Below, one piece after another: positions 35,335-63,593 of a stretch of 64,000 bases of DNA. The number at the start of each line of letters is the position of its first letter. Position 1 is the first letter of the stretch. A program made the position numbers and the translations under genes. This DNA is from Methylotenera oryzisoli (lineage in GTDB: Bacteria; Pseudomonadota; Gammaproteobacteria; Burkholderiales; Methylophilaceae): the NCBI GenBank assembly GCA_945881735.1, contig CAMCVF010000003.1, positions 62,001-126,000 of the forward strand, read 5' to 3'. The notes beneath the pieces were generated by a model, which did not search any database, had not been told where the DNA came from, and saw nothing but the letters and a program-made list of their open reading frames with translations.

Positions 35335-36435
35335 TTACTTTTTTATAATCTGCGATAATACTTCTAAAAAGCGAGCATTTTCGCCAAATAAGCCAATGCT
35401 AACGCGCAAATAGTCGGGCATTTCATAATTGGCAATTGGTCGTACAATCACGCCATTTTTTAATAATTGCTGGTTCACCTGCGCTGCATTTTCAATTTTA
35501 AAACTAATAAAATTGGCATATGAGGGAATATAACTTAAGCCTAACGCTGTTAAGCCTTGTGCAATTTGCACCATACCAGCTTGATTTAAGGCATAGCTAC
35601 GTTCTACAAAATCGTCATCAGCCAAGCTGGCAACTGCCGCCGCCTGCGCGATATTATTCACATTAAATGGCTGACGCACACGGTTTAGCATATCGGCAAC
35701 ATTGGCGTGCATTAAGCCAAAACCAATGCGCAAACCAGCTAAGCCATAGGCCTTTGAAAAGGTGCGCGAAATAATCAGGTTATCAAATTCGCTCAACCAG
35801 GTAATCGCTTCCGATTTATGATTAGCCGATAAATACTCGTCATAAGCTTCATCTAGTACTACCAATACGTTTTTTGGCACTTGCTTTAAAAAACCTTTTA
35901 AAACAAGTTTAGAAAGCAAAGTACCAGTTGGATTATTGGGGTTAGCAATAAATATTAAGCGCGTCTTTGGCGTTATCGCTTTTAAAAAAGCGTCTAAATC
36001 GTGCGCAAAATCTTTTGCAGGCACCACCACACCAGAAGAACCAACTGCTTGCGTTACTAGGGGATACACGGCAAAGGCATGTTGTGAATAAATCGCCTCA
36101 CAGCCTTTATGTAAGAAGGCTCTAGCAGTAAGTTCTAAAATATCATTTGAGCCATTGCCAAATACAATCTGGTTATGGGCAACATTGAATTTCTGTGCCA
36201 CGGTTTGGCGCAAGGCATAACTATTGCCATCTGGATAGCGCGCAATATCTAAAATGGCATCTTCAATGGCCATTTGCGCTTTTGGGCTGATGCCAAGAGG
36301 GTTTTCGTTAGAAGCTAATTTAACAATATCGGCCTCATTTAAACCCATTTCACGCGCAAGCTCACCAATCGGCTTACCACCTTGGTAGGGGGCAATGGTG
36401 CGGATGTAATCGGGAGCTAAATCACTGATATTCAT
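35335..36435 (-). CDS. hisC: Histidinol-phosphate aminotransferase
   Basis: 366 residues, class I/II aminotransferase fold. The PLP lysine is in SRTFSKAYGLAGLRIG (about residue 230); NPNNPTGT and the VVLDEAYDEY loop are present. It transfers an amino group to imidazole-acetol phosphate and often also serves phenylpyruvate or prephenate. It is placed between pheA and DAHP synthase, so a role in phenylalanine/tyrosine transamination is plausible. A second hisC elsewhere is possible. Confidence 0.92.
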   Translation of the reverse strand: MNISDLAPDYIRTIAPYQGGKPIGELAREMGLNEADIVKLASNENPLGISPKAQMAIEDAILDIARYPDGNSYALRQTVAQKFNVAHNQIVFGNGSNDILELTARAFLHKGCEAIYSQHAFAVYPLVTQAVGSSGVVVPAKDFAHDLDAFLKAITPKTRLIFIANPNNPTGTLLSKLVLKGFLKQVPKNVLVVLDEAYDEYLSANHKSEAITWLSEFDNLIISRTFSKAYGLAGLRIGFGLMHANVADMLNRVRQPFNVNNIAQAAAVASLADDDFVERSYALNQAGMVQIAQGLTALGLSYIPSYANFISFKIENAAQVNQQLLKNGVIVRPIANYEMPDYLRVSIGLFGENARFLEVLSQIIKK

Positions 36436-52088: not shown

Positions 52089-52475
52089 CTAATCGTACTT
52101 AATATATTTAAATCTTACATCCTCGTTTGGCGTGCCTTCAAGCGCACTTTTCGAACTGTCTGCATTCACCTCTTTAGCTGGTTGCCAGCCAATCACCTGC
52201 TCAATTTTAGCAGCCAATTCGAAGTCTTTATCGGTAATGCCTTTGGCATCATGCGTTTGCAATTTTACAATCAAATAAGCATAAGAAACTGTTAAATCAG
52301 GATGATGCCATGCAGCTTCAGCCAAGTGTCCTACTGTGTTCACAACCATTAAGGTGGCTTTCCAGCCGCTGGTTTTGTATTTTCGGCGAATCCAGCCATT
52401 TTCTAAATACCATTGCGGTAGCTCATTTTGTAGCTTGGCTGTAACTTCCGACTCTGAGTAAACTGCTGGTACCAT
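52089..52475 (-). CDS. 4a-hydroxytetrahydrobiopterin dehydratase (pterin carbinolamine dehydratase)
   Basis: 128 residues; the core has the two-histidine motif AWHHPDLTVSYAYLIV and a following THDAKGITDKDFELA, both diagnostic. In phenylalanine hydroxylase systems it recycles pterin; in methylotrophs with H4MPT the gene often lies with pterin and C1 genes and may serve pterin synthesis instead. No phhA is adjacent, which favours the second role. It is 54 bp after the kinase gene. Confidence 0.9.
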   Translation of the reverse strand: MVPAVYSESEVTAKLQNELPQWYLENGWIRRKYKTSGWKATLMVVNTVGHLAEAAWHHPDLTVSYAYLIVKLQTHDAKGITDKDFELAAKIEQVIGWQPAKEVNADSSKSALEGTPNEDVRFKYIKYD

Positions 52476-52529
52476 AGCCTTAGTCCTTTTTAAATCGATT
52501 AAATACTAGTCTTTACTAAGAGGTCATTA

Positions 52530-53192
52530 CTAGTGGATAGAAGAGCCCACTTTGTCTAAGGTTAACTCGCTTAAGCCTTCTAAAAAGTGCGTATAATCAG
52601 TTTTGTGCAAAATCCATTTGCCAAATTTTTTGTTTAAAACATAGTCGCTAAACGCTTCGTCTAACACACCATTTTGCGTCATCACTTTTAAACTTAATTC
52701 AGATTTAGTGTTACCAGACACGGTTTGTGAATCCGATTTAACCAAGATCAAATGCTGCGCGTTTAATTTTTGCGCCAACCATGCCGCAATACTATCAGAA
52801 GTAACATCCCAGTTCTGCGGAATGCTGTCATCTGAAAGAACCATATGGCTTGGCAACCACACAATACCGCGATGCTGCCATGTACGCTCATCGATTTCTA
52901 GCTGAGTCCTGGCTGTTGTCAGCAAGGGGTTCATATTAGCCAGCAATAATCCGTACTGGTCCATCGCTAAAACCGCCAAGCGATGCGCACAGGCATCGCT
53001 TATTTTAGATAACTTTTGCGCATCGCGTACGGCATCGGCAAAAACTCCACCGCCCGGTACAATGATAATATTACCGTAGCTGAACTTTGCAAATATAGTT
53101 AGCCAGCGCTCTAATTCAGAAGATCCTAAAAGACTTCCGCCAATTTTTACAATCCAAATTGGCCTATCTCTAACATTTTCAAATTGCTCCAT
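52530..53192 (-). CDS. Amino-acid-kinase-fold protein, MfnE-like (methylofuran precursor kinase)
   Basis: 220 residues of the amino-acid kinase fold: KIGGSLLGSSELERW at the start (residues 16-30), the VPGGGVFADAVRD loop and the DVTSDSIAAWLA ATP-binding run. The archaeal relative MfnE adds a phosphate to the aminomethyl-furan methyl phosphate in methanofuran synthesis. Assignment here rests on size, motifs and being among H4MPT/methylofuran genes. Another small-molecule kinase is possible. Confidence 0.72.
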   Translation of the reverse strand: MEQFENVRDRPIWIVKIGGSLLGSSELERWLTIFAKFSYGNIIIVPGGGVFADAVRDAQKLSKISDACAHRLAVLAMDQYGLLLANMNPLLTTARTQLEIDERTWQHRGIVWLPSHMVLSDDSIPQNWDVTSDSIAAWLAQKLNAQHLILVKSDSQTVSGNTKSELSLKVMTQNGVLDEAFSDYVLNKKFGKWILHKTDYTHFLEGLSELTLDKVGSSIH

Positions 53193-53305
53193 TTTTATTC
53201 CTAACCATTATTACTCAAGCATTTATTATAAGTAGGTATGATTTTGTAACAATTTAAATTGTTTTATGTTATACGTCAAAAATTACATTACGGATTAAGG
53301 TTTAT

Positions 53306-54721
53306 CTACTGAATTAAATAATACTCTAACAACGCTTTTAGATTAGATGCTTTATCCAGCGTTTCTTTATACTCTTTTTCGGCCACTGAATCGGCCACAA
53401 TACCTCCACCCGCAAAAAAACTCAGCTCATTTTCGTACACAACCGCGGTACGAATCGCAATATTGGTATCCATTTTTCTATCAAAGCCAATATAGCCAAT
53501 GGCGCCACAATAAAGCCCACGTTTATGTGGCTCTAATTCTTCAATAATCTGCATGGCGCGTAATTTTGGCGCACCTGTAATTGAGCCACCAGGAAAACAG
53601 CCTTTGAGCAAATCAACCGCAGTGGCCGTTTTATTGAGCTTACCCGTAACACTACTGACCAAATGATGCACATTGGCAAAGCTTTGCAGCTGAAATAATT
53701 GATTAGCTTTAATACTACCAACCACGCAATTTTTACCAATATCATTGCGCAATAAATCTACTATCATCACATTCTCTGCCCTGTCCTTAAGGCTATTCAA
53801 CAGCTCGTTTGAGTAAGCCAAATCTTGTGCAGGGTCGCTTGAACGTGGCCTTGTACCTTTAATAGGTCGTGTTTCAACATGATAGCCATCGGTTTGTAAA
53901 AAGCGCTCTGGCGAATTGGATAAAACCTGTATGCTTTGTGAGTTATTTAGAGGTAAATTCATGTATGCCATAAAAGGTGCAGGGCTAATTTCGCGCAGTT
54001 TTTTATAAGCTTGCCAGCTATCGCCCTGCACTTTTGCCACAAAACGTTGTGCTAAATTCACTTGATAACAATCGCCAGCGACGATGTAGTTTTTTACTTT
54101 GTTAAAGACTTGATAGTATGCTGATTTACTTAAATTTGACTGGATTTCTGAAAGCACGCTAAACGGCGTTGAGTCAGAAGTAGGCGCTGCAGGATTGTTA
54201 AATTTGGCACACAAGGCTGGCCAATTGACTTTTGTGGGTTCGGTTAAACCATGCGAAACAAGCACACTGCGCTTTTCGCGGTGATCAACCACAACCGCCC
54301 AATCATAAAATCCCAACATCAATTCAGGAATATTTGTAGCGGCGGCAATGTTAGGTAGCGTTTCAATTCGGCGACCTAAGTCATATGCAAAATAGCCTAA
54401 AGCACCGCCTGCAAATGGGTGCTGTGTTTTGGCGACCGGATATTGTTGCAGAATTTGATTAATTAAACAAAAAGGGTCGGCATCCGATACTTTTTCAGCA
54501 CCTTGCTGGCTAATAGTGGTTTTTTGGCCTGTGGTTACTATCGTGATAAAGGGCTCTGCCACCAAAATGTCGTATCGTCCATATTGACTACCTGCTTTGC
54601 CAGTAGCGTCATTTATCAATTGCCCACTATCCAATAACATGGCCCAGGGCTGATCTTTAATGCGCTCAAACAATAAAGCACTATCGTGGTGATAGGTCAA
54701 TTCATATTTCAATACTCTCAT
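53306..54721 (-). CDS. pabB: Aminodeoxychorismate synthase component I
   Basis: 471 residues of the chorismate-binding family. Motifs: KGTRPRSSDP, GGSITGAPK and the end GGGIVADSVAEKEYKETLDKA split by family residues. The N-terminal half resembles PabB rather than TrpE. It makes aminodeoxychorismate with a PabA glutamine amidotransferase, leading to p-aminobenzoate, the arene of folate and of methanopterin. Placement inside the C1 cofactor block suggests dedicated supply. Its GTG/ATG region overlaps the next gene by 4 bp. Confidence 0.9.
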   Translation of the reverse strand: MRVLKYELTYHHDSALLFERIKDQPWAMLLDSGQLINDATGKAGSQYGRYDILVAEPFITIVTTGQKTTISQQGAEKVSDADPFCLINQILQQYPVAKTQHPFAGGALGYFAYDLGRRIETLPNIAAATNIPELMLGFYDWAVVVDHREKRSVLVSHGLTEPTKVNWPALCAKFNNPAAPTSDSTPFSVLSEIQSNLSKSAYYQVFNKVKNYIVAGDCYQVNLAQRFVAKVQGDSWQAYKKLREISPAPFMAYMNLPLNNSQSIQVLSNSPERFLQTDGYHVETRPIKGTRPRSSDPAQDLAYSNELLNSLKDRAENVMIVDLLRNDIGKNCVVGSIKANQLFQLQSFANVHHLVSSVTGKLNKTATAVDLLKGCFPGGSITGAPKLRAMQIIEELEPHKRGLYCGAIGYIGFDRKMDTNIAIRTAVVYENELSFFAGGGIVADSVAEKEYKETLDKASNLKALLEYYLIQ

Positions 54722-55767
54722 GTTTGATTAGCCATTATGCTCAATTGAGCTACGGCATAGGCAGAAAAACAGATCGCTAATGCGTGTGAATTTTGTTTAA
54801 AAGCAGGCATATTGCTTGTAAGTATGGCATCAATCGATAGATATGGAGTGTTTAAATCTTCGGCTATTACGCTTACCAAAAAACTGCCAGCACCAACGCC
54901 AATTATAGGCATATTTGGTTTAAAGTGTTTTAAAACAGCTGCTTTCAATTGCATCAATTGTAATGTTCGGCAAGAAAATGCTAGTTGCACCCAACTATCT
55001 AGCGGCTTGTCTTCAACATCATAACCCACCATGCGTGCTAGCCTGCGTGCTGATTCTTGCAAGCTTTTACCCTTACCATCCGATGTTTCTGCCATGTCCG
55101 ACGATTCATCTAATTCGCCAGTCAAGCGGTAAACATCTGCCATGGTGGCAAAATACTCGGCCATGACATTGGTTTCAACCGAGTCTAAAAGTAACTTCTG
55201 ACCCAGTGCCATGACTGGCGTGCGAATCACGCCGGTATAAACCAGCGTATCTTCCTGCAAACGGCTTGCATCTGATAAAGCTGATGACAACACTTTGCCA
55301 GATTGAATCGCAATAATATCGCTGGTGGTGCTGCCAATATCCAGTAATAGCGCATCAGAGCGATAGTGCGCAATCAACCTGGCACTGGCGTGCCAATTAG
55401 TTGAGGCAATGCAATTAGTGTTTTCTGCAACTTGTACAATGCTTACAAAACCCTTACTAGCAGCATAAAACTGGCATTGCTGAACCAATAATTGGTTAAC
55501 GAATTGTGCAATAACATTTACACCCACATGTCGATTCGCAAATAAATCCACTAATTCGCCTGTCATGGTAATAGCATGCTTGGCTTGGTGCGGATTTATT
55601 TTAAAGCTGTTTAGTACAGTATGAATAGCAGACGACAAATTATCCAAACCACGCCACAAAGGACAAGCTACTTGCAAAGTACCAAGCAATTCGCCATCTA
55701 CATTCAGCAAAACCGCTTTAAGGTGCGCGCCACCAATATCCCAACCAAGTGTTTGTAATTTAGACAT
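54718..55767 (-). CDS. MfnF-like protein (COG1548, H4MPT-linked C1 transfer pathway)
   Basis: 349 residues with the sugar-kinase/hydantoinase-like nucleotide fold: LGWDIGGAHLKAVLL (residues 7-21) and LLLDIGSTTSDIIAI (about 144-158) are phosphate loops. Archaeal MfnF joins the furan diphosphate with the tyramine-glutamate unit in methanofuran synthesis. The methylotroph version is annotated as an H4MPT-linked C1 transfer protein. Its end overlaps pabB by 4 bp, and its start overlaps the ATP-grasp gene by 8 bp. Confidence 0.78.
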   Translation of the reverse strand: MSKLQTLGWDIGGAHLKAVLLNVDGELLGTLQVACPLWRGLDNLSSAIHTVLNSFKINPHQAKHAITMTGELVDLFANRHVGVNVIAQFVNQLLVQQCQFYAASKGFVSIVQVAENTNCIASTNWHASARLIAHYRSDALLLDIGSTTSDIIAIQSGKVLSSALSDASRLQEDTLVYTGVIRTPVMALGQKLLLDSVETNVMAEYFATMADVYRLTGELDESSDMAETSDGKGKSLQESARRLARMVGYDVEDKPLDSWVQLAFSCRTLQLMQLKAAVLKHFKPNMPIIGVGAGSFLVSVIAEDLNTPYLSIDAILTSNMPAFKQNSHALAICFSAYAVAQLSIMANQT

Positions 55768-56767
55768 GGATATTCACAATATGGCGTTGGAGAGTTGGCC
55801 ACTTAAAATCGGCTTGGGTTAAGCTATTAATTATAAGCGCGGCTGGGTTTTCACCCGTGGCTTCGGCCAATCCCGCATAACTAGTGGTTAAACGGGGATT
55901 AATCTCGACCACAACGATTGAACAATCCGCTTTTACAATTACATCAATACCAATATAACCATTTAGATTCATATCAGACTCAGCAATTTTCTGTGCCAAT
56001 AATTCAAACGCATGCCAAAATTGCTGTAGGGCATTAATTTCAATTCCTGCATACTTAAAAACTCTATCTTCTATTCTAATCAATTGCTTATTACAACTTA
56101 GAATCCGAGCAAAGCCTTGATGAATCACACATGAAATACTGGCGGCAACACCCTCTTGGTAAGGCTGAATCACATGACTACTAGCTTTATTACATTTATT
56201 AACCCAACGAATTAAATCATGAGCCTGTTCAACATATAACGTATCTGAGCATCCTGCACCGTCATTTGGCTTTACTACCCATTTGCCATCAACATTAGGC
56301 CAATTTTCAATGCGGTAAGTTGGAATAGTAGGAATACCAGCCCTCGTTAAAGCTAAATATGTGGTCATTTTATGACTCGCAAGTTCTATACTCTTAAGTC
56401 CACAACCCAATACCAGCTTGCCATGCAATACGGCTAATTCTGTTAACTTTTTAAGCAAGCCATCGGTTTCAGGTGCAATCAACCATACCGCATCAGCGTG
56501 CTTAATTTGCTGTTCCCAAATTTTCCATACATCATCGTTTATGTCAATTTCAATGCAATCGTGACAAAAATCAGGCCTTCTTAAGCGCACATCGACTGTT
56601 GTGCTAATCCGGTAAGGCAATTGAGATAAATCGCTTAGCAGCGCATCACGCATCAAATTACCCTCATAGACTAAAATTGCAGGCAAATCTGCGTGATTAA
56701 AACCACCTGCTGTGATAAATTCACACACAAATATTTTTTTTATTGTTATGTCAGGCAATTCGTGCAA
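55760..56767 (-). CDS. ATP-grasp ligase, MfnD-like (COG1821)
   Basis: 335 residues. ATP-grasp signatures are WVVKPNDGAGCSDTLYV (about 168-184) and VVEINPRLTTSY (about 287-298). The archaeal relative MfnD joins tyramine and glutamate in methanofuran. In the bacterial cofactor tyrosine may replace tyramine, so a tyrosine/tyramine-glutamate ligase is the best guess. There is no ATG. TTG at 56767 is preceded by GGGA, and family proteins begin IFVCEFITAGG shortly after. Its start region overlaps that of the divergent HisA-like gene. Confidence 0.75.
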   Translation of the reverse strand: MHELPDITIKKIFVCEFITAGGFNHADLPAILVYEGNLMRDALLSDLSQLPYRISTTVDVRLRRPDFCHDCIEIDINDDVWKIWEQQIKHADAVWLIAPETDGLLKKLTELAVLHGKLVLGCGLKSIELASHKMTTYLALTRAGIPTIPTYRIENWPNVDGKWVVKPNDGAGCSDTLYVEQAHDLIRWVNKCNKASSHVIQPYQEGVAASISCVIHQGFARILSCNKQLIRIEDRVFKYAGIEINALQQFWHAFELLAQKIAESDMNLNGYIGIDVIVKADCSIVVVEINPRLTTSYAGLAEATGENPAALIINSLTQADFKWPTLQRHIVNIHV

Positions 56768-57502
56768 ATTATTCCCGTAATCGATTTAATGCAAGGCCAA
56801 GTGGTGCACGCTAAAAGAGGCATTCGAAGCCAATATCAAGCCATTCAATCCAACTTGTGCAAAGGTAGCCTACCGTTCGACTTGATTGATGCCATATTGA
56901 AATTATACCAATTTCAAACCCTGTACATAGCAGATTTAGACGCCATCTTAGGTAAGGGTAACCACGATGAGTTAATCAAACAAATCAGCCAAAACTATCC
57001 AAACCTAACCATTTGGCTTGATTGTGGCATTCGCCAAGTAAATGCACGCGCTTTGTATCACTCAAATAATAATCAGGTCAATATACGCCCTGTGGTGGGA
57101 TCTGAGAACATCGCTAATTTGCAAGATTATCGCGCCATTAGTTATGGTTGCGAAAGCCAGCACATCTTATCATTGGACTACTCTGCAACCAGTGCAATGG
57201 GAATTGCCGAGCTACACAATAGCGCACGCTTTTGGCCAGACCACACGATTTGCATGACATTAAATGCTGTAGGTAATACGCAAGGCGTTGATGTAAGTAA
57301 ACTAAATGATTTGATTCAACTAAATCGCGCAAGAAAAAACCCTTCGCAACTCTACGCGGCTGGCGGTGTGCGCAATTTAGCCGATATTAAAGCATTAGAA
57401 AAAATGGGAATTACTGGCTCATTGGTGGCCACAGCATTACATACGGGCACATTAAGCCAAGCCGATATTGCCATGGCCTACACAATAAAAAACCCGAGCT
57501 AG
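56762..57502 (+). CDS. HisA-like barrel protein (COG1411) of the C1 cofactor locus
   Basis: 246 residues from the GTG at 56762. The frame is open further up, but the family starts with IIPVIDLMQGQVVHAKRG, so this start is chosen. TIM-barrel strands seen: IADLDAI, WLDCGIR and YAAGGVRNLADIKAL near the phosphate site. It is HisA-related but not the histidine enzyme. In methylotrophs and methanogens it occurs with H4MPT/methylofuran genes and its reaction is not established. It is the only plus-strand gene of the block; its last codons form half of a terminator hairpin. Confidence 0.78.
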   Translation: MQIIPVIDLMQGQVVHAKRGIRSQYQAIQSNLCKGSLPFDLIDAILKLYQFQTLYIADLDAILGKGNHDELIKQISQNYPNLTIWLDCGIRQVNARALYHSNNNQVNIRPVVGSENIANLQDYRAISYGCESQHILSLDYSATSAMGIAELHNSARFWPDHTICMTLNAVGNTQGVDVSKLNDLIQLNRARKNPSQLYAAGGVRNLADIKALEKMGITGSLVATALHTGTLSQADIAMAYTIKNPS

Positions 57503-57536: not shown

Positions 57537-58073
57537 TTATTCTAAGTTTGCATGAATGGAACGCATTCCTTCCTCAGTTAATCCTTTTGATTCGATTAAA
57601 TCAGCAATAACGGCCTCTAAGAAAATCAATGTTGATAGTTCAAATTGTGAACCCATGGGCATTGCTTTCGTTAATGGGAAGCTATCATCTTGACCAATTT
57701 GAATCACTAAATCAGCCACATCTGCCATTGCAGATGATTTCTTCATTGAAATCACGACCAACTTTGCGCCAACTGATTTGGATTTTTTCACAAAAGGCAA
57801 TAATGTTTCTGTGCCGCCTGAGCCTGAAACCAACACCAATAAATCACCTGATTTAATCGCTGGCGTTACCACTTCACCAATCATGCTCACGTTATAGCCA
57901 GAGTGCACCAAACGCATTGCAAAAAAGCGTGAAACCAATAATGAACGACCAGCGCCACCTATAAATGTGCGACCTGCATGGTCAACTAACTTAAGCAATT
58001 CAGCTGCTTTACTGTTGTCAGTTACCGCTAAAATTCCTGTTAATTTGTCTAAAATAACCTTTTGATGATTCAT
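57537..58073 (-). CDS. hxlB: 6-phospho-3-hexuloisomerase
   Basis: 178 residues of the SIS sugar-isomerase fold, normal for PHI. Segments: AGRTFIGGAGRSLLVSRFFAMRL, then LVLVSGSGGTETLL and the C-terminal LEAVIADLIESKG. It converts hexulose 6-phosphate to fructose 6-phosphate, the second step of the RuMP cycle. AAGGATAG precedes the ATG. It is separated from hps by a terminator-like hairpin, so it may have partial read-through or its own promoter. Confidence 0.94.
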   Translation of the reverse strand: MNHQKVILDKLTGILAVTDNSKAAELLKLVDHAGRTFIGGAGRSLLVSRFFAMRLVHSGYNVSMIGEVVTPAIKSGDLLVLVSGSGGTETLLPFVKKSKSVGAKLVVISMKKSSAMADVADLVIQIGQDDSFPLTKAMPMGSQFELSTLIFLEAVIADLIESKGLTEEGMRSIHANLE

Positions 58074-58216: not shown

Positions 58217-58849
58217 TTAAGCGTGAGCGATTGCCGTGATTTCAGCAGCAGAAGCAGCAGGATCAGCAGCACCGTAAATAGCAGCACCAGCAACAATGAT
58301 TGTCGCGCCAGCGTCACGTACTTGTGCAGTTGTTGCAGCTTTTACGCCACCAGCAACTGAGATTTCAACGCCTAAGTTTAATGAAGCAACTAAAGCTAAA
58401 TCGGTGAATGGTGTTTGACCAGCAGCTTGCTGATCCAAACCAGTGTGAACACCAATGATGTGTGCACCAGCAGCAGCAACTTCTTTAGTTTTAGCAGCTT
58501 TGTCAGCAACGTTGATCAAGTCAACTTGTGCTTTTTTGCCGTATTTGTTAGCAACATCGATTACACCTTTGATAGTACCGATATCAGCACAACCAAGAAC
58601 TGTACAGATATCAGCACCAGCTTTATAGAATGGCTCAGCTTCGTAGAAACCAGCATCCATTGTTTTTAAGTCAACTAAGATTTTGTTATTTGGGAATTTG
58701 GCACGTAAAGTCTCTAACAATTTAACACCGTTATGTTTAATGCATGGTGTACCGATTTCTAAAATGTCTACATGTGGTGCTACTAAAGTTGCCAATGCAA
58801 CTGTTGCGTCAAAATCTAATGAATCTAATGCCATTTGGGTTAAAGCCAT
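58217..58849 (-). CDS. hxlA: 3-hexulose-6-phosphate synthase
   Basis: 210 residues, orotidine-decarboxylase-like barrel. Motifs: LEIGTPCIKHNG, VDLKTMDAGFYEAEP (aspartates and lysine of the active site) and VAGGVKAATTAQVRDAG. It adds formaldehyde to ribulose 5-phosphate, the key step of assimilation in this organism. GGAGAG precedes the ATG and a long leader with repeats lies upstream. Codons are strongly biased (many GCA, GTA, ACA) as in highly expressed genes. Confidence 0.96.
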   Translation of the reverse strand: MALTQMALDSLDFDATVALATLVAPHVDILEIGTPCIKHNGVKLLETLRAKFPNNKILVDLKTMDAGFYEAEPFYKAGADICTVLGCADIGTIKGVIDVANKYGKKAQVDLINVADKAAKTKEVAAAGAHIIGVHTGLDQQAAGQTPFTDLALVASLNLGVEISVAGGVKAATTAQVRDAGATIIVAGAAIYGAADPAASAAEITAIAHA

Positions 58850-59195: not shown

Positions 59196-60149
59196 TTATA
59201 GCTTAGCTGCTAATGCTACTTCCAATTTATTTTGATCTGCAACAAAACCGCGAATACCTTCTGATAACTTCTCAATCGCCATTGCGTCTTGGTTTAGTTC
59301 AAAACGGAATTCAGCTTCGGTCATTTTTGCAGGTGGTGTTTTAGTCGCTCCCGTGTCTTTTAGCATTTGTACTAAAGTACCTTCTGTAGCGGCCAAATCT
59401 TGCAATAAGTTTGGTGAAACTGTTAAGCGATCACAACCAGCTAATGCAATTAACTCGCCAGTGTTACGAAATGAAGCACCCATTACCACTGTTTTATAGC
59501 CATGCTCTTTGTAATACTGGTAAATTGCACGTACTGAAACCACACCTGGATCTGTTTCTTGTGTGTATTCCGTAGTTGGGTTTTTTGCTTTGTACCAATC
59601 TAGGATGCGGCCTACAAACGGTGAAATCAAAAATACGCCGGCTTCAGCACAGGCACGCGCTTGGCCAAAACCGAACAACAATGTTAGGTTACATTGGATG
59701 CCTTCTTTTTCAAGAATCTCGCCCGCTTTGATGCCTTCCCATGTAGATGCTAATTTAATCAATACGCGGTCTTTAGTAATACCAGACTCTTCGTACAATT
59801 TGATTAATTTACGTCCTTTAGCCACCATTGCATCTAAGTCAAATGACAAACGCGCATCTACTTCGGTTGAAATACGGCCTGGTACTTCTTTGGTAATTTC
59901 AGCACCAATTAAAACAGCTAATTTGTCGGCAGCGCTGTCGACTTGTTGCGCTTTTGTGCCGCCTTGCGCTTTTGCATAAGCAATCGCTGTTTCAATTAAT
60001 GGCGCATATTGTGGCAACTGGCTTGCTTTTAATACTAATGAAGGGTTTGTTGTTGCATCCACTGGCTTAACAGCTTTAATCGCTTCAACGTCACCAGTAT
60101 CAGCTACGATAGTGGTCATGCTTTTTAGTTGGTCTAGTAAATTTGCCAT
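59196..60149 (-). CDS. tal: Transaldolase
   Basis: 317 residues, TalB-type. The Schiff-base lysine is in [11 protein letters not shown] (about residue 131), with [13 protein letters not shown] near the start and [18 protein letters not shown] in the middle. It rearranges sugar phosphates to regenerate ribulose 5-phosphate in the RuMP cycle. A strong AGGAGG lies before the ATG and a TATAAT (60223-60228 region, minus strand) further up. Confidence 0.95.
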
Positions 60150-60814: not shown

Positions 60815-61705
60815 TTAGCTATCACTTTGTTCTAATAATTGTGTGAATCCATAAGCAAATAAACTGGCTACCGTTAAATCGGCACTTGTACCAGGATTAA
60901 GCTGTTTTTGCTTCAATTCCTTATCCCACGCCAGCAGCTTGGCTTGATTAAGCTTGGGGTTGCCTGAAATATTAAAAATTGTTAAATATAGTTTAGCTTG
61001 CTGTTGAATATCCCTTGCAACAGCTTCACCATACTTACGCAAGAGATGAGAGTCGGGGAAGATCGCCAAAAAAGTTAAATAGACTTGAGTAGCTAGCCAA
61101 GCTGGCTTTTTATCTTGAAAGGAGGTTTTTAATATGGGCAATGCCAAATTAAAAATGGCATCAAAATTATTATTGTATTGCGAGGCAATGGTATCTCGAC
61201 AAGCAGCCGCTTTCATGGCGTCTAGCAAAGTGCAATCTGCAGTTTGATGCACATCATGTTCGTATACATAACCAAGGCCTGCAGGATTGGCCAGATTAAT
61301 CGCTTTAAAAGTTAGGGTAGCGTCATCAATAGTGGTGTTCTGTAACACGTATTTTAATCGGTCTAAATAGTCATCTTGGCCTGACAAGCGATATTGACTA
61401 AGCATTAATGCAGCATGCACCAAGGGAGCACAAATCAAAATAATACCTAAATTGGTATTGCAAGCGACGGCTTCTTGGGTTGCTTCAACACTCAACAAAA
61501 TACGTTGCCCCAAGGTTAAATCAGGCAAGGCAATTACGCTGGAAACCGCCTCTGCACTTTTAATAAAGTCATACACTGTCATGCCATGACCATCGGCAAA
61601 AATGTGCACATTTCCAGGCTTTAACGCTTCAAGCTCAGCAAGGCAGGCAGACTTAAAAAGTTGGCTGACTTTTTGGTGAATAGAGTTTGCTGTGGTTTGT
61701 GCCAT
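60815..61705 (-). CDS. Triphosphoribosyl-dephospho-CoA synthase-like protein (COG1767) of the H4MPT locus
   Basis: 296 residues, all-helical CitG/MdcB-like. ACLAELEALKPGNVHIFADGHGMTVYDF contains the family's KPGNV active-site run (about residues 29-33). In citrate lyase systems such enzymes make the prosthetic group precursor; no citrate lyase genes are here. In methylotrophs the gene (called orf7 in Methylobacterium) sits with mch and is needed for the H4MPT/methylofuran pathway, with no proven reaction. It ends the minus-strand run. Confidence 0.8.
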   Translation of the reverse strand: MAQTTANSIHQKVSQLFKSACLAELEALKPGNVHIFADGHGMTVYDFIKSAEAVSSVIALPDLTLGQRILLSVEATQEAVACNTNLGIILICAPLVHAALMLSQYRLSGQDDYLDRLKYVLQNTTIDDATLTFKAINLANPAGLGYVYEHDVHQTADCTLLDAMKAAACRDTIASQYNNNFDAIFNLALPILKTSFQDKKPAWLATQVYLTFLAIFPDSHLLRKYGEAVARDIQQQAKLYLTIFNISGNPKLNQAKLLAWDKELKQKQLNPGTSADLTVASLFAYGFTQLLEQSDS

Positions 61706-61751: not shown

Positions 61752-62612
61752 TTAAAGAGTGCTTAAACAATCATCTACCAACACTTGCGCAATATTGATT
61801 TGGGCGACATTTTGCAAGCCACGCCAAGCAGGAATGCTATTGACTTCTAGCACGTAAAGTTCGCCGTTTTCATCGCGAATAACATCGACTCCGCAATAAG
61901 AAATACCCAATATTTTAGAGGCTTGTACCGCCAACTCTAAAATATCAGCACAATGAATCGCCTCGCATTTGGCGCCAAGCGCTACGTTATGCAACCAGCC
62001 TTCGCCACTTCGGCGCATGGCAGCAATTGCCTTGTTATTAACCACAAATACGCGATAATCATGAGTAGATTTTACAAAGCTTTGCAAATAAAAAACGCCA
62101 TCTACATGCTTATCCATTGGTAAAGGTGGCGATTCACTAACCAAGCGCACGCCCTGCCCTTGCGACCCAAATAGTGGCTTAATCACTAAGGCTTTTTGTT
62201 GATTAATAACGGCATGCGCCGCTTGACGCGATTCGCATACCCAAGTGCGCGGCGTTTTAATACCAGACTGATGCAATAAAAAACTGGTCATGGCTTTATC
62301 TACGGTGCGCTCAATCGCTTTTGCATCGTTGTAAATCAATACATTCTGCATTTTTAAAATATGAATCACATTTAAGCGCGTGGTAATTTGTTGCAAAGTA
62401 CCGCCAGCAATGCCGCGCACAAAAGCTATTTTGGGTAATTCGTCAAAGTGAGGGATGTGAATGCATGGCGAATCTTGGGAAAGATCAATCACACAATCTC
62501 TTAATGATACAAAAACAGCCTCTACTCCACGACTAGCAAAGGCTTTTGCTAGTTGCGCACCATGCCAACCACCTTGTGTTTCAACTTCATCCGTAAATAT
62601 GGGGATACGCAT
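61752..62612 (-). CDS. RimK-like ATP-grasp ligase of the H4MPT locus
   Basis: 286 residues. ATP-grasp parts: ALVIKPLFGSQGQGVRLV (about 144-161), then YCGVDVIRDENGELYVLEVNSIPAWRGL. Relatives add glutamate to coenzymes or proteins (MptN, CofF, RimK). In methylotrophs the equivalent (orf17) is tied to the archaeal-like C1 pathway; a glutamate ligase for methylofuran or methanopterin is likely but not proven. It is 9 bp after mch. Confidence 0.8.
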   Translation of the reverse strand: MRIPIFTDEVETQGGWHGAQLAKAFASRGVEAVFVSLRDCVIDLSQDSPCIHIPHFDELPKIAFVRGIAGGTLQQITTRLNVIHILKMQNVLIYNDAKAIERTVDKAMTSFLLHQSGIKTPRTWVCESRQAAHAVINQQKALVIKPLFGSQGQGVRLVSESPPLPMDKHVDGVFYLQSFVKSTHDYRVFVVNNKAIAAMRRSGEGWLHNVALGAKCEAIHCADILELAVQASKILGISYCGVDVIRDENGELYVLEVNSIPAWRGLQNVAQINIAQVLVDDCLSTL

Positions 62613-62621
62613 TAAAACGAA

Positions 62622-63593
62622 TTAAGCGCCAAATGACTGGTTTAATAAATCTTCATCAAAAGCACCTGCAAAATAACTATTGCCAGTTGTTAGATTAGTA
62701 ATAGCGACTTTTGCTGGCGAAAATAATAATGGGTCGATTTGGTAAAAATCCATATTCACCTCTTTAAAAACTTGTGCAAATGGCTTGCCATAATCTTTTG
62801 AAGCACTACTGGGCAAATCGGCTGCTAATTTCTTGGCTGCTTCATCGCTACATTGCACAAATAAATGCACAAATCCACCAAACAAAATCGCATCATTGGT
62901 GCGGCCCATGCCGGTCAAAAAGTCTGAGCTAGGGGATGGCAGTGGCGCACTCGCAATGCCATCCACTAATTGATTAAGAGGAAAATGCAAGGTATGCAGC
63001 TTATGCAAGGCCACTTCTAATACGCGCGCCACAATTTGCACAGTACCTGCAAGACTGCGAGTTGGGGTTAAAATAAAGGTCAAGTTTTCAGGATTTATTA
63101 GCGTATCGCGCGCGACTTTTTCAATCACCTCAAGCGGCGGAACTCTGTCTGCTTCTAAAACCAATACGGTTTTTTTTGCCGTGTCTTTATAGTCAATGTC
63201 TTTAAAAAGATCCTCACGCTGGGCAATGCTGCGCGCAGGACCAGAACCCAGTGAAAAAAACTTTTCGTAACTTAAAGTCCAGCCTGCATACTGGCTACCC
63301 AAACATGCTAGCACAGGTCTCTTTGCGCTGACTTGCACGCCTGTTGGCCAATGCTTAAACGGTAACTGTTGTGTAAAAGTAACCTGCCCCAAGCCCCCCA
63401 TGCAAATTTCCGCAATGCGCCGCCCTGCTTCCAGTCCTCCTGCGACATCAATTCCAGCATCCACAATTATTGCGCCAGAGTTATGTTTGCTAATGCCTAA
63501 ATTAAGCGTAGCTGCATCGTTAAGCAAAGCAACTACTAAAGGTTGCGCTAGTTGGTTAACACTTATAGAGTTTGTAGGCTGAATATCAATCAT
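62622..63593 (-). CDS. mch: Methenyltetrahydromethanopterin cyclohydrolase
   Basis: 323 residues, normal length. It hydrolyses methenyl-H4MPT to formyl-H4MPT in formaldehyde oxidation. Family runs: SGAIIVDAGIDVAGGLEAGRR, EICMGGLGQVTF, and KRPVLACLGSQYAGWTLS near residue 95. It is the clearest marker of the archaeal-type C1 pathway in the window. It lies between the ATP-grasp gene at the edge and the RimK-like ligase. Confidence 0.95.
   Translation of the reverse strand: MIDIQPTNSISVNQLAQPLVVALLNDAATLNLGISKHNSGAIIVDAGIDVAGGLEAGRRIAEICMGGLGQVTFTQQLPFKHWPTGVQVSAKRPVLACLGSQYAGWTLSYEKFFSLGSGPARSIAQREDLFKDIDYKDTAKKTVLVLEADRVPPLEVIEKVARDTLINPENLTFILTPTRSLAGTVQIVARVLEVALHKLHTLHFPLNQLVDGIASAPLPSPSSDFLTGMGRTNDAILFGGFVHLFVQCSDEAAKKLAADLPSSASKDYGKPFAQVFKEVNMDFYQIDPLLFSPAKVAITNLTTGNSYFAGAFDEDLLNQSFGA

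Follow-up and report, generated by a model that had tools for sequence, protein, structure and literature searches.

What does a HisA-like barrel protein do in a gene block that supplies C1 cofactors? The question is raised by a 64,000-nucleotide stretch from Methylotenera oryzisoli (the window, C3:62001-126000), in which such a gene lies beside genes for the synthesis of methylofuran and tetrahydromethanopterin (H4MPT). A sequence-only reading had singled out the protein as the one member of the block at 52089-57502 without a reaction, and had proposed that it may fill a gap in the bacterial route to methylofuran. Scoring of the gene calls against Pfam and NCBIfam profiles with curated cut-offs, taken together with gene order, identifies the gene as the ortholog of Orf17. 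The protein is probably an enzyme of the furan branch, and neither a HisA nor an enzyme of H4MPT synthesis.

The Orf17 ortholog occupies positions 56762 to 57502 on the forward strand, an assignment that draws on TIGR00734 (107.8-109.9 bits), synteny, an AlphaFold2 model and the position of the start codon. The window protein matches TIGR00734 at 6.9e-31 and outscores there the HisA/HisF models (107.8 vs 62 bits), and 73/73 Orf17 members match the same profile. The score lies below the TIGR00734 (hisAF_rel) cut-off of 179.85; since none of 150 sampled Pseudomonadota genomes has a match over that cut-off, the whole bacterial branch falls below it in the sample. The family and its gene order are common to the window and to other Orf17 loci, including that of Methylobacterium bullatum (L104). 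The listed open reading frame (ORF) begins at GTG 56693, probably too far upstream: 14 of the 15 relatives listed (60 computed) keep a start codon 9 bp 5′ of the IPVIDL motif, which makes GTG 56762 the likely start.

The phenotype of the gene has been published. According to the available portions of Hemmann et al. 2021 (PMC8141765), who use the name Orf17 and give its family as PF00977, deletion of orf17 in Methylorubrum extorquens PA1 (delta-mxaF background) abolished methylofuran and kept methenyl-dephospho-H4MPT (methenyl-dH4MPT), no methylofuran-glutamate intermediates were seen, and complementation brought methylofuran back. The same portions omit Orf17 from the pathway, propose for it an initial step such as core formation, and show the need for it in M. 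extorquens only. The sequence-only reading was thus right, for Orf17 as treated in that paper, that one member lacked a reaction, and its proposal of a missing methylofuran step agrees with the deletion phenotype, which was already in print. It had also named unchanged pools of both cofactors in a mutant as the refuting outcome, and this did not occur: the M. extorquens deletion lost methylofuran, and H4MPT alone was kept. We found no published Orf17 reaction in the open-licence literature.

The AlphaFold2 model is a confident barrel (predicted local distance difference test, pLDDT, 93.4; predicted template modelling score, pTM, 0.91). Its nearest solved folds are HisA/PriA (Z 25.9, root-mean-square deviation 2.4, 225 aligned, 20% identity), with HisF at Z 22.3, and a phmmer search of the PDB with the window protein returned 22 distinct sequences, HisA/PriA-type by name, the best at E 1.7e-05. 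This fold and a PF00977 match of 1.8e-22 would suit a second HisA of histidine biosynthesis, but we consider that identity exceedingly improbable: TIGR00007 scores 62 bits against a cut-off of 228.95, the GGGIR and RDG motifs are replaced, and another match, recognised as HisA/HisF by general type only, occurs at C10:1880-2575, with a HisC about 2.7 kb away. A second HisA was rejected on the loss of the HisA motifs.

The residues were compared by a profile alignment (probability 99.3) of Orf17 with 15 proteins taken as HisA by score group and motifs. Residues D8, D58, D139 and T166 and the beta-7 pair G201-G202 align with those of HisA; the GGG of GGGIR aligns with D87-x-G89, the RDG aspartate with V170 and the beta-8 GR with A223-S/T224. 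The division of the HisA residues (beta-1 and beta-5 aspartates, GGGIR, RDG) into catalytic and phosphate-binding ones follows the general picture of that enzyme. Because the GGGIR phosphate motif and the RDG aspartate are replaced, Orf17 is not a HisA, and the alignment is read as one HisA phosphate site kept (beta-7), the other replaced by the carboxylates D87 and E115, and the barrel aspartates retained. Invariant in all 73 Orf17 sequences are D8, R22, Y25, D58, D87, E115, D139, W158, G201, G202 and H227, with V170 present in 72.

Neighbourhoods were surveyed in 80 Orf17 loci, the best 80 of 551 confirmed matches obtained with search motifs covering residues 55-62 and 158-167. Neighbours were counted with our own profiles, and 56 loci have both 10-kb flanks. 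The counts are CitG-like 72, MfnF 70, MyfB 64, Mch 61 and MptG 52, followed by the rarer MfnE (40), PabB (32), Pcd (30) and MfnB (17); they are approximate for MfnD, MyfA and MyfB, ATP-grasp ligases whose profiles cross-match, and the FolB profile also catches MfnB. In 58 of the 80 loci the distance between Orf17 and an MfnD-type ligase is no more than 300 bp. Where titles among these best 80 name a lineage, it is always proteobacterial; archaeal sequence is absent from them, and archaeal co-occurrence rests on 14 control genomes.

At the level of genomes, Orf17 never occurs without MfnB in either of two overlapping samples, which together hold 55 distinct Orf17 genomes. In the 150 Pseudomonadota genomes the TIGR00734 matches separate into one group of 9 genomes at 81.9-107.9 bits and another at 68.6 or less, and MfnB is found in exactly those 9 and no other. 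MptG is over cut-off in 10, namely the same 9 and G015 (L134), whose homolog of 137.5 bits is accompanied by neither an MfnB nor an Orf17 match; G027 has a 24.8-bit fragment. The second sample comprises 248 genomes of the order of G091, with Orf17 called by profile A2 at E 1e-25 or better. By this criterion 54 genomes carry Orf17; the same 54 carry MptG, which scores under its cut-off in 4 of them, and 61 carry MfnB.

These distributions bear on a role of Orf17 in H4MPT synthesis, where its substrate could be a ribosyl-aryl phosphate whose ribofuranose is opened by an Amadori-like reaction, a chemistry guessed at as the ground for White's proposal on MJ_0703. The HisA-type barrel with its aspartate pair and the identical 54 Orf17 and MptG genomes of the 248 are in keeping with such a role, but the deletion mutant retains methenyl-dH4MPT and is without methylofuran (PMC8141765, in its available portions), and MptG occurs without Orf17 in G015. 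Among the 14 controls, moreover, TIGR00734 is over cut-off in one, and Haloferax volcanii and Sulfolobus acidocaldarius have MptG over cut-off and no MfnB. The H4MPT role was rejected on the published mutant and G015, and we hold it to be very unlikely.

Several points weigh against a furan-branch assignment. White earlier placed MJ_0703 in H4MPT synthesis, as cited in the available portions of PMC8141765. In the 248 genomes Orf17 tracks MptG (54 = 54) more exactly than it tracks MfnB, and 7 of the 61 MfnB genomes (G185, G296, G321, G332, G349, G361 and G366) are without Orf17; co-occurrence alone therefore does not favour furan over pterin in that sample. The search motifs partly selected for the conservation at residues 55-62 and 158-167 (A2), the phosphate and amine sites of Orf17 come from sequence alignment without a ligand, and an archaeal core route has been reported in vitro, in a source available in part, with MfnA-F and no HisA-like protein.

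An MfnB homolog is not always accompanied by Orf17, and the seven MfnB genomes without it may use MfnB in another pathway. In G296, G349, G332 and G366 (L130-L133) and in G185 (L127), genomes without Orf17 and MptG, an MfnB-like gene (PF04476) lies near FolB-type and Pterin_bind (FolP-type) genes, and it is possible that this MfnB branch is folate-linked. Fusions of MfnB with FolB (PF04476 + PF02152) were observed at L128:7551-8651, L129:7548-8654 and L137:7992-9137, the genomes being G321 and G361, without Orf17, and G344, with Orf17. MfnB is fused to MfnE in a 545-aa ORF at L135:7851-9485 (G219), which combines PF04476 with an AA_kinase domain.

As a furan-branch enzyme, Orf17 would act by acid-base catalysis on one intermediate with a single phosphate, which may be held at the remaining beta-7 glycine pair while D87 and E115 face a cationic or amine-bearing part. 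It would act upstream of MfnF, and loss of Orf17 would therefore stop core formation. Three placements can be ranked. Conversion of the aldehyde 4-(hydroxymethyl)-2-furancarboxaldehyde phosphate (4-HFC-P) to the aminomethyl compound 5-(aminomethyl)-3-furanmethanol phosphate (F1-P), in any form, comes first, though weakly held and doubtful; a contribution to closing or dehydrating the ring, at the MfnB step or later, comes second and is unlikely; and a step between F1-P and MfnF, third, is less likely still.

The amination step draws attention to itself since bacterial clusters hold MfnB, MfnE, MfnF and ligases and no consistent aminotransferase. With 13 PF00155-type seeds from the window genome, which would miss unrelated pyridoxal phosphate (PLP) classes, a match near Orf17 or MfnB was detected in 5 of the 80 loci, two of the five being nearest to sulfhydrylase seeds, and in 0 of 20 further loci chosen by hand from the 61 MfnB genomes. 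Hemmann et al., in the portions available, could not name a bacterial MfnC (PMC8141765). By elimination, therefore, the orphan gene and the amination step may pair, a pairing weakened by the fact that archaea have a PLP-type MfnC plus an Orf17 homolog. In its boldest form, which we regard as improbable, Orf17 would be the PLP-free aminating enzyme of the bacterial furan branch. Here 4-HFC-P, itself a PLP-like aromatic aldehyde with a CH2-phosphate, would condense with an amino donor to an imine within the barrel, the amine being held by D87/E115, and the D8/D139 pair would move a proton across the C-N-C unit, much as in the HisA Amadori reaction, leaving F1-P. We know of no PLP-free transaminase of such a kind.

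Alternatively, a housekeeping aminotransferase of relaxed specificity (AspAT-, AlaT- or HisC2-like) could aminate 4-HFC-P, with Orf17 acting at another furan-branch step, a serious contender that we place a little short of an even chance. The window genome has 13 PF00155 matches, including AspAT-like, AlaT-like and two HisC proteins; the rest resemble BioF, DapC, a PatB C-S lyase, a MocR-type regulator, GlyA, PseC, two homocysteine-type sulfhydrylases and HemL. Archaeal MfnC is an aminotransferase of the same type. Five MfnC homologs were counted in M. extorquens by Hemmann et al. (PMC8141765, available portions). This arrangement, however, leaves Orf17 without a step, and none of these genes is consistently in the cluster. 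The second HisC-type aminotransferase lies within the window, at 35338-36435 on the reverse strand (TIGR01141 over cut-off), and the other HisC is the one near the HisA/HisF-type match on C10.

Orf17 could also aid MfnB in ring closure and dehydration, as HisF closes imidazole, if these steps are slow by MfnB alone; we rate this, too, as unlikely. The accessible parts of PMC11365854 and PMC6604932 report slow turnover for MfnB (M. maripaludis, 0.9-2.7 per min at 25-45 °C) and assign no MfnB residues to the cyclisation and two dehydrations. HisF is among the nearest folds of Orf17 (Z 22.3), and Orf17 is never found without MfnB. Set against this, MfnB alone is reported, in a source available in part, to yield 4-HFC-P in vitro, and the seven MfnB genomes without Orf17 count likewise, though these possibly serve other pathways. 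Alignment of the window-genome MfnB with MJ1099 also shows that the Asp-x-Lys and the later Asp...Lys motifs are kept. Orf17 as a filler for a damaged bacterial MfnB was accordingly rejected.

The placement of Orf17 matters because most methylotrophic bacteria cannot oxidise formaldehyde without methylofuran, which in turn has been shown to require Orf17. With HisA chemistry excluded and the likely substrate narrowed to a singly phosphorylated furan intermediate, the list of candidate reactions becomes short, and PLP-free amination, if true, would be new enzymology.

All six ORFs of 52089-57502 are present at these coordinates, with families matched far beyond chance in profile searches. On the reverse strand, opposite orf17 as had been described, lie genes for a pterin-4a-carbinolamine dehydratase (Pcd, 52089-52475; PF01329 4e-27, NF002017 over cut-off), an MfnE-like (Orf21-like) kinase (52530-53192; PF00696, NF040622 1.3e-29, 103.4 bits), the aminodeoxychorismate synthase component I PabB (53306-54721; TIGR00553 362.1 bits, over the cut-off of 328.4), an MfnF-like (Orf9-like) protein (54718-55767; TIGR03123 317.7 bits, over the cut-off of 244.1; NF040623 MfnF 147.5 bits) and an MfnD-like ATP-grasp ligase (55760-56767; NF040722 9.4e-32, 110.6 bits). 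The names MfnE-, MfnF- and MfnD-like are used because the scores fall below the archaeal equivalog cut-offs of 300, 520 and 400 bits. The genes had been described as contiguous with overlaps; they are present as named, but overlaps are confined to pabB/mfnF (4 bp) and mfnF/mfnD (8 bp), with gaps of 113 bp between mfnE and pabB and 54 bp between pcd and mfnE. The start of the MfnD-like gene is uncertain, either TTG 56767 or a candidate further downstream. The mfnD and orf17 genes are divergent with nearly back-to-back starts (window 56725-56770; median gap between N-terminal motifs 47 bp in 50 loci), and there is therefore little space for separate promoters. Sigma-70 consensus matches in the window were below chance (99 found vs 112.8 expected), and the count was not used.

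PabB makes the p-aminobenzoate (pABA) precursor for H4MPT and folate. The arene of methylofuran comes from tyrosine/tyramine (PMC8141765, available portions), so pabB is not, as had been supposed, the arene source of both C1 cofactors. Nor does the block end at 57502. Dephospho-H4MPT and methylofuran are made by way of a known “archaeal-like” cluster, and the block is one arm of it. Continuing on the reverse strand are 6-phospho-3-hexuloisomerase HxlB (57537-58073; TIGR03127 over cut-off), 3-hexulose-6-phosphate synthase HxlA (58217-58849; TIGR03128 over cut-off), transaldolase (59196-60149; TIGR00874 over cut-off), a CitG-like protein (60815-61705; PF01874 4.2e-64) in the Orf7 position, a RimK-type ligase in the MyfB (Orf5) position (61752-62612; TIGR00768 over cut-off, NF040720 202.1 bits, under 350) and methenyl-H4MPT cyclohydrolase Mch (62622-63593; TIGR03120 400.9 bits, over cut-off). 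Past the window end, mch is followed by genes for a MyfA-like ligase, an Mpt_N-domain protein and MptG. A second group about 21 kb past the window encodes MfnB (C3:146749-147444), DUF447, a dihydropteroate synthase (DHPS)-like protein and a flavoprotein, and FhcD lies at C3:188926-189816, about 63 kb past the window. The window shares the order Pcd-MfnE-PabB-MfnF-MfnD, opposite-strand Orf17, HxlB-HxlA-Tal-CitG-MyfB-Mch with loci of Methylotenera oryzisoli (L032) and of Methylobacillus glycogenes (L038). Together with the ribulose monophosphate (RuMP) genes, this order points to a likely source within the Methylophilaceae. PF00282 (MfnA-type decarboxylase) was unmatched in the window genome, which is 92.7% complete and encodes the MfnD-like protein, so that the absence is not certain.

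Some Orf17 sequences carry a single stop inside the matched stretch (6 of 54: G271, G247, G197, G311, G137 and G028). Orf17 homologs also occur on plasmids, in 34 of 72,556 PLSDB records, mostly from Azospirillum, Paraburkholderia and Rhizobium. The label Fae was withdrawn from family U171h, in which three members match nothing in Pfam and one nothing in NCBIfam; its members may be shadow ORFs.

Compared with known systems, Orf17 shares with HisA/PriA the (beta-alpha)8 barrel and the beta-1 and beta-5 aspartates (D8 and D139, present in 73/73), but differs in the replaced GGGIR, beta-8 GR and RDG aspartate and in the new invariants R22, Y25, E115 and H227. The likeness to the archaeal methanofuran pathway MfnA-F consists of MfnB and MfnD-, MfnE- and MfnF-like proteins encoded in the window genome, although the latter three are below equivalog cut-offs, no MfnA-type match was found and MfnC was not identified. 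Closest is the Orf17 of M. extorquens (Mext_1835), with the same PF00977 HisA-type family and the cluster neighbours MfnF/Orf9, CitG-like, MyfB, Mch and MptG; the window differs in having HxlB, HxlA and transaldolase between orf17 and the CitG-like gene, and in its clustered MfnD-like gene, whereas M. extorquens is described as without MfnD in the available portions of PMC8141765. The cluster and the orf17 phenotype are already known from that system, and what is added here is a sharper question about the reaction.

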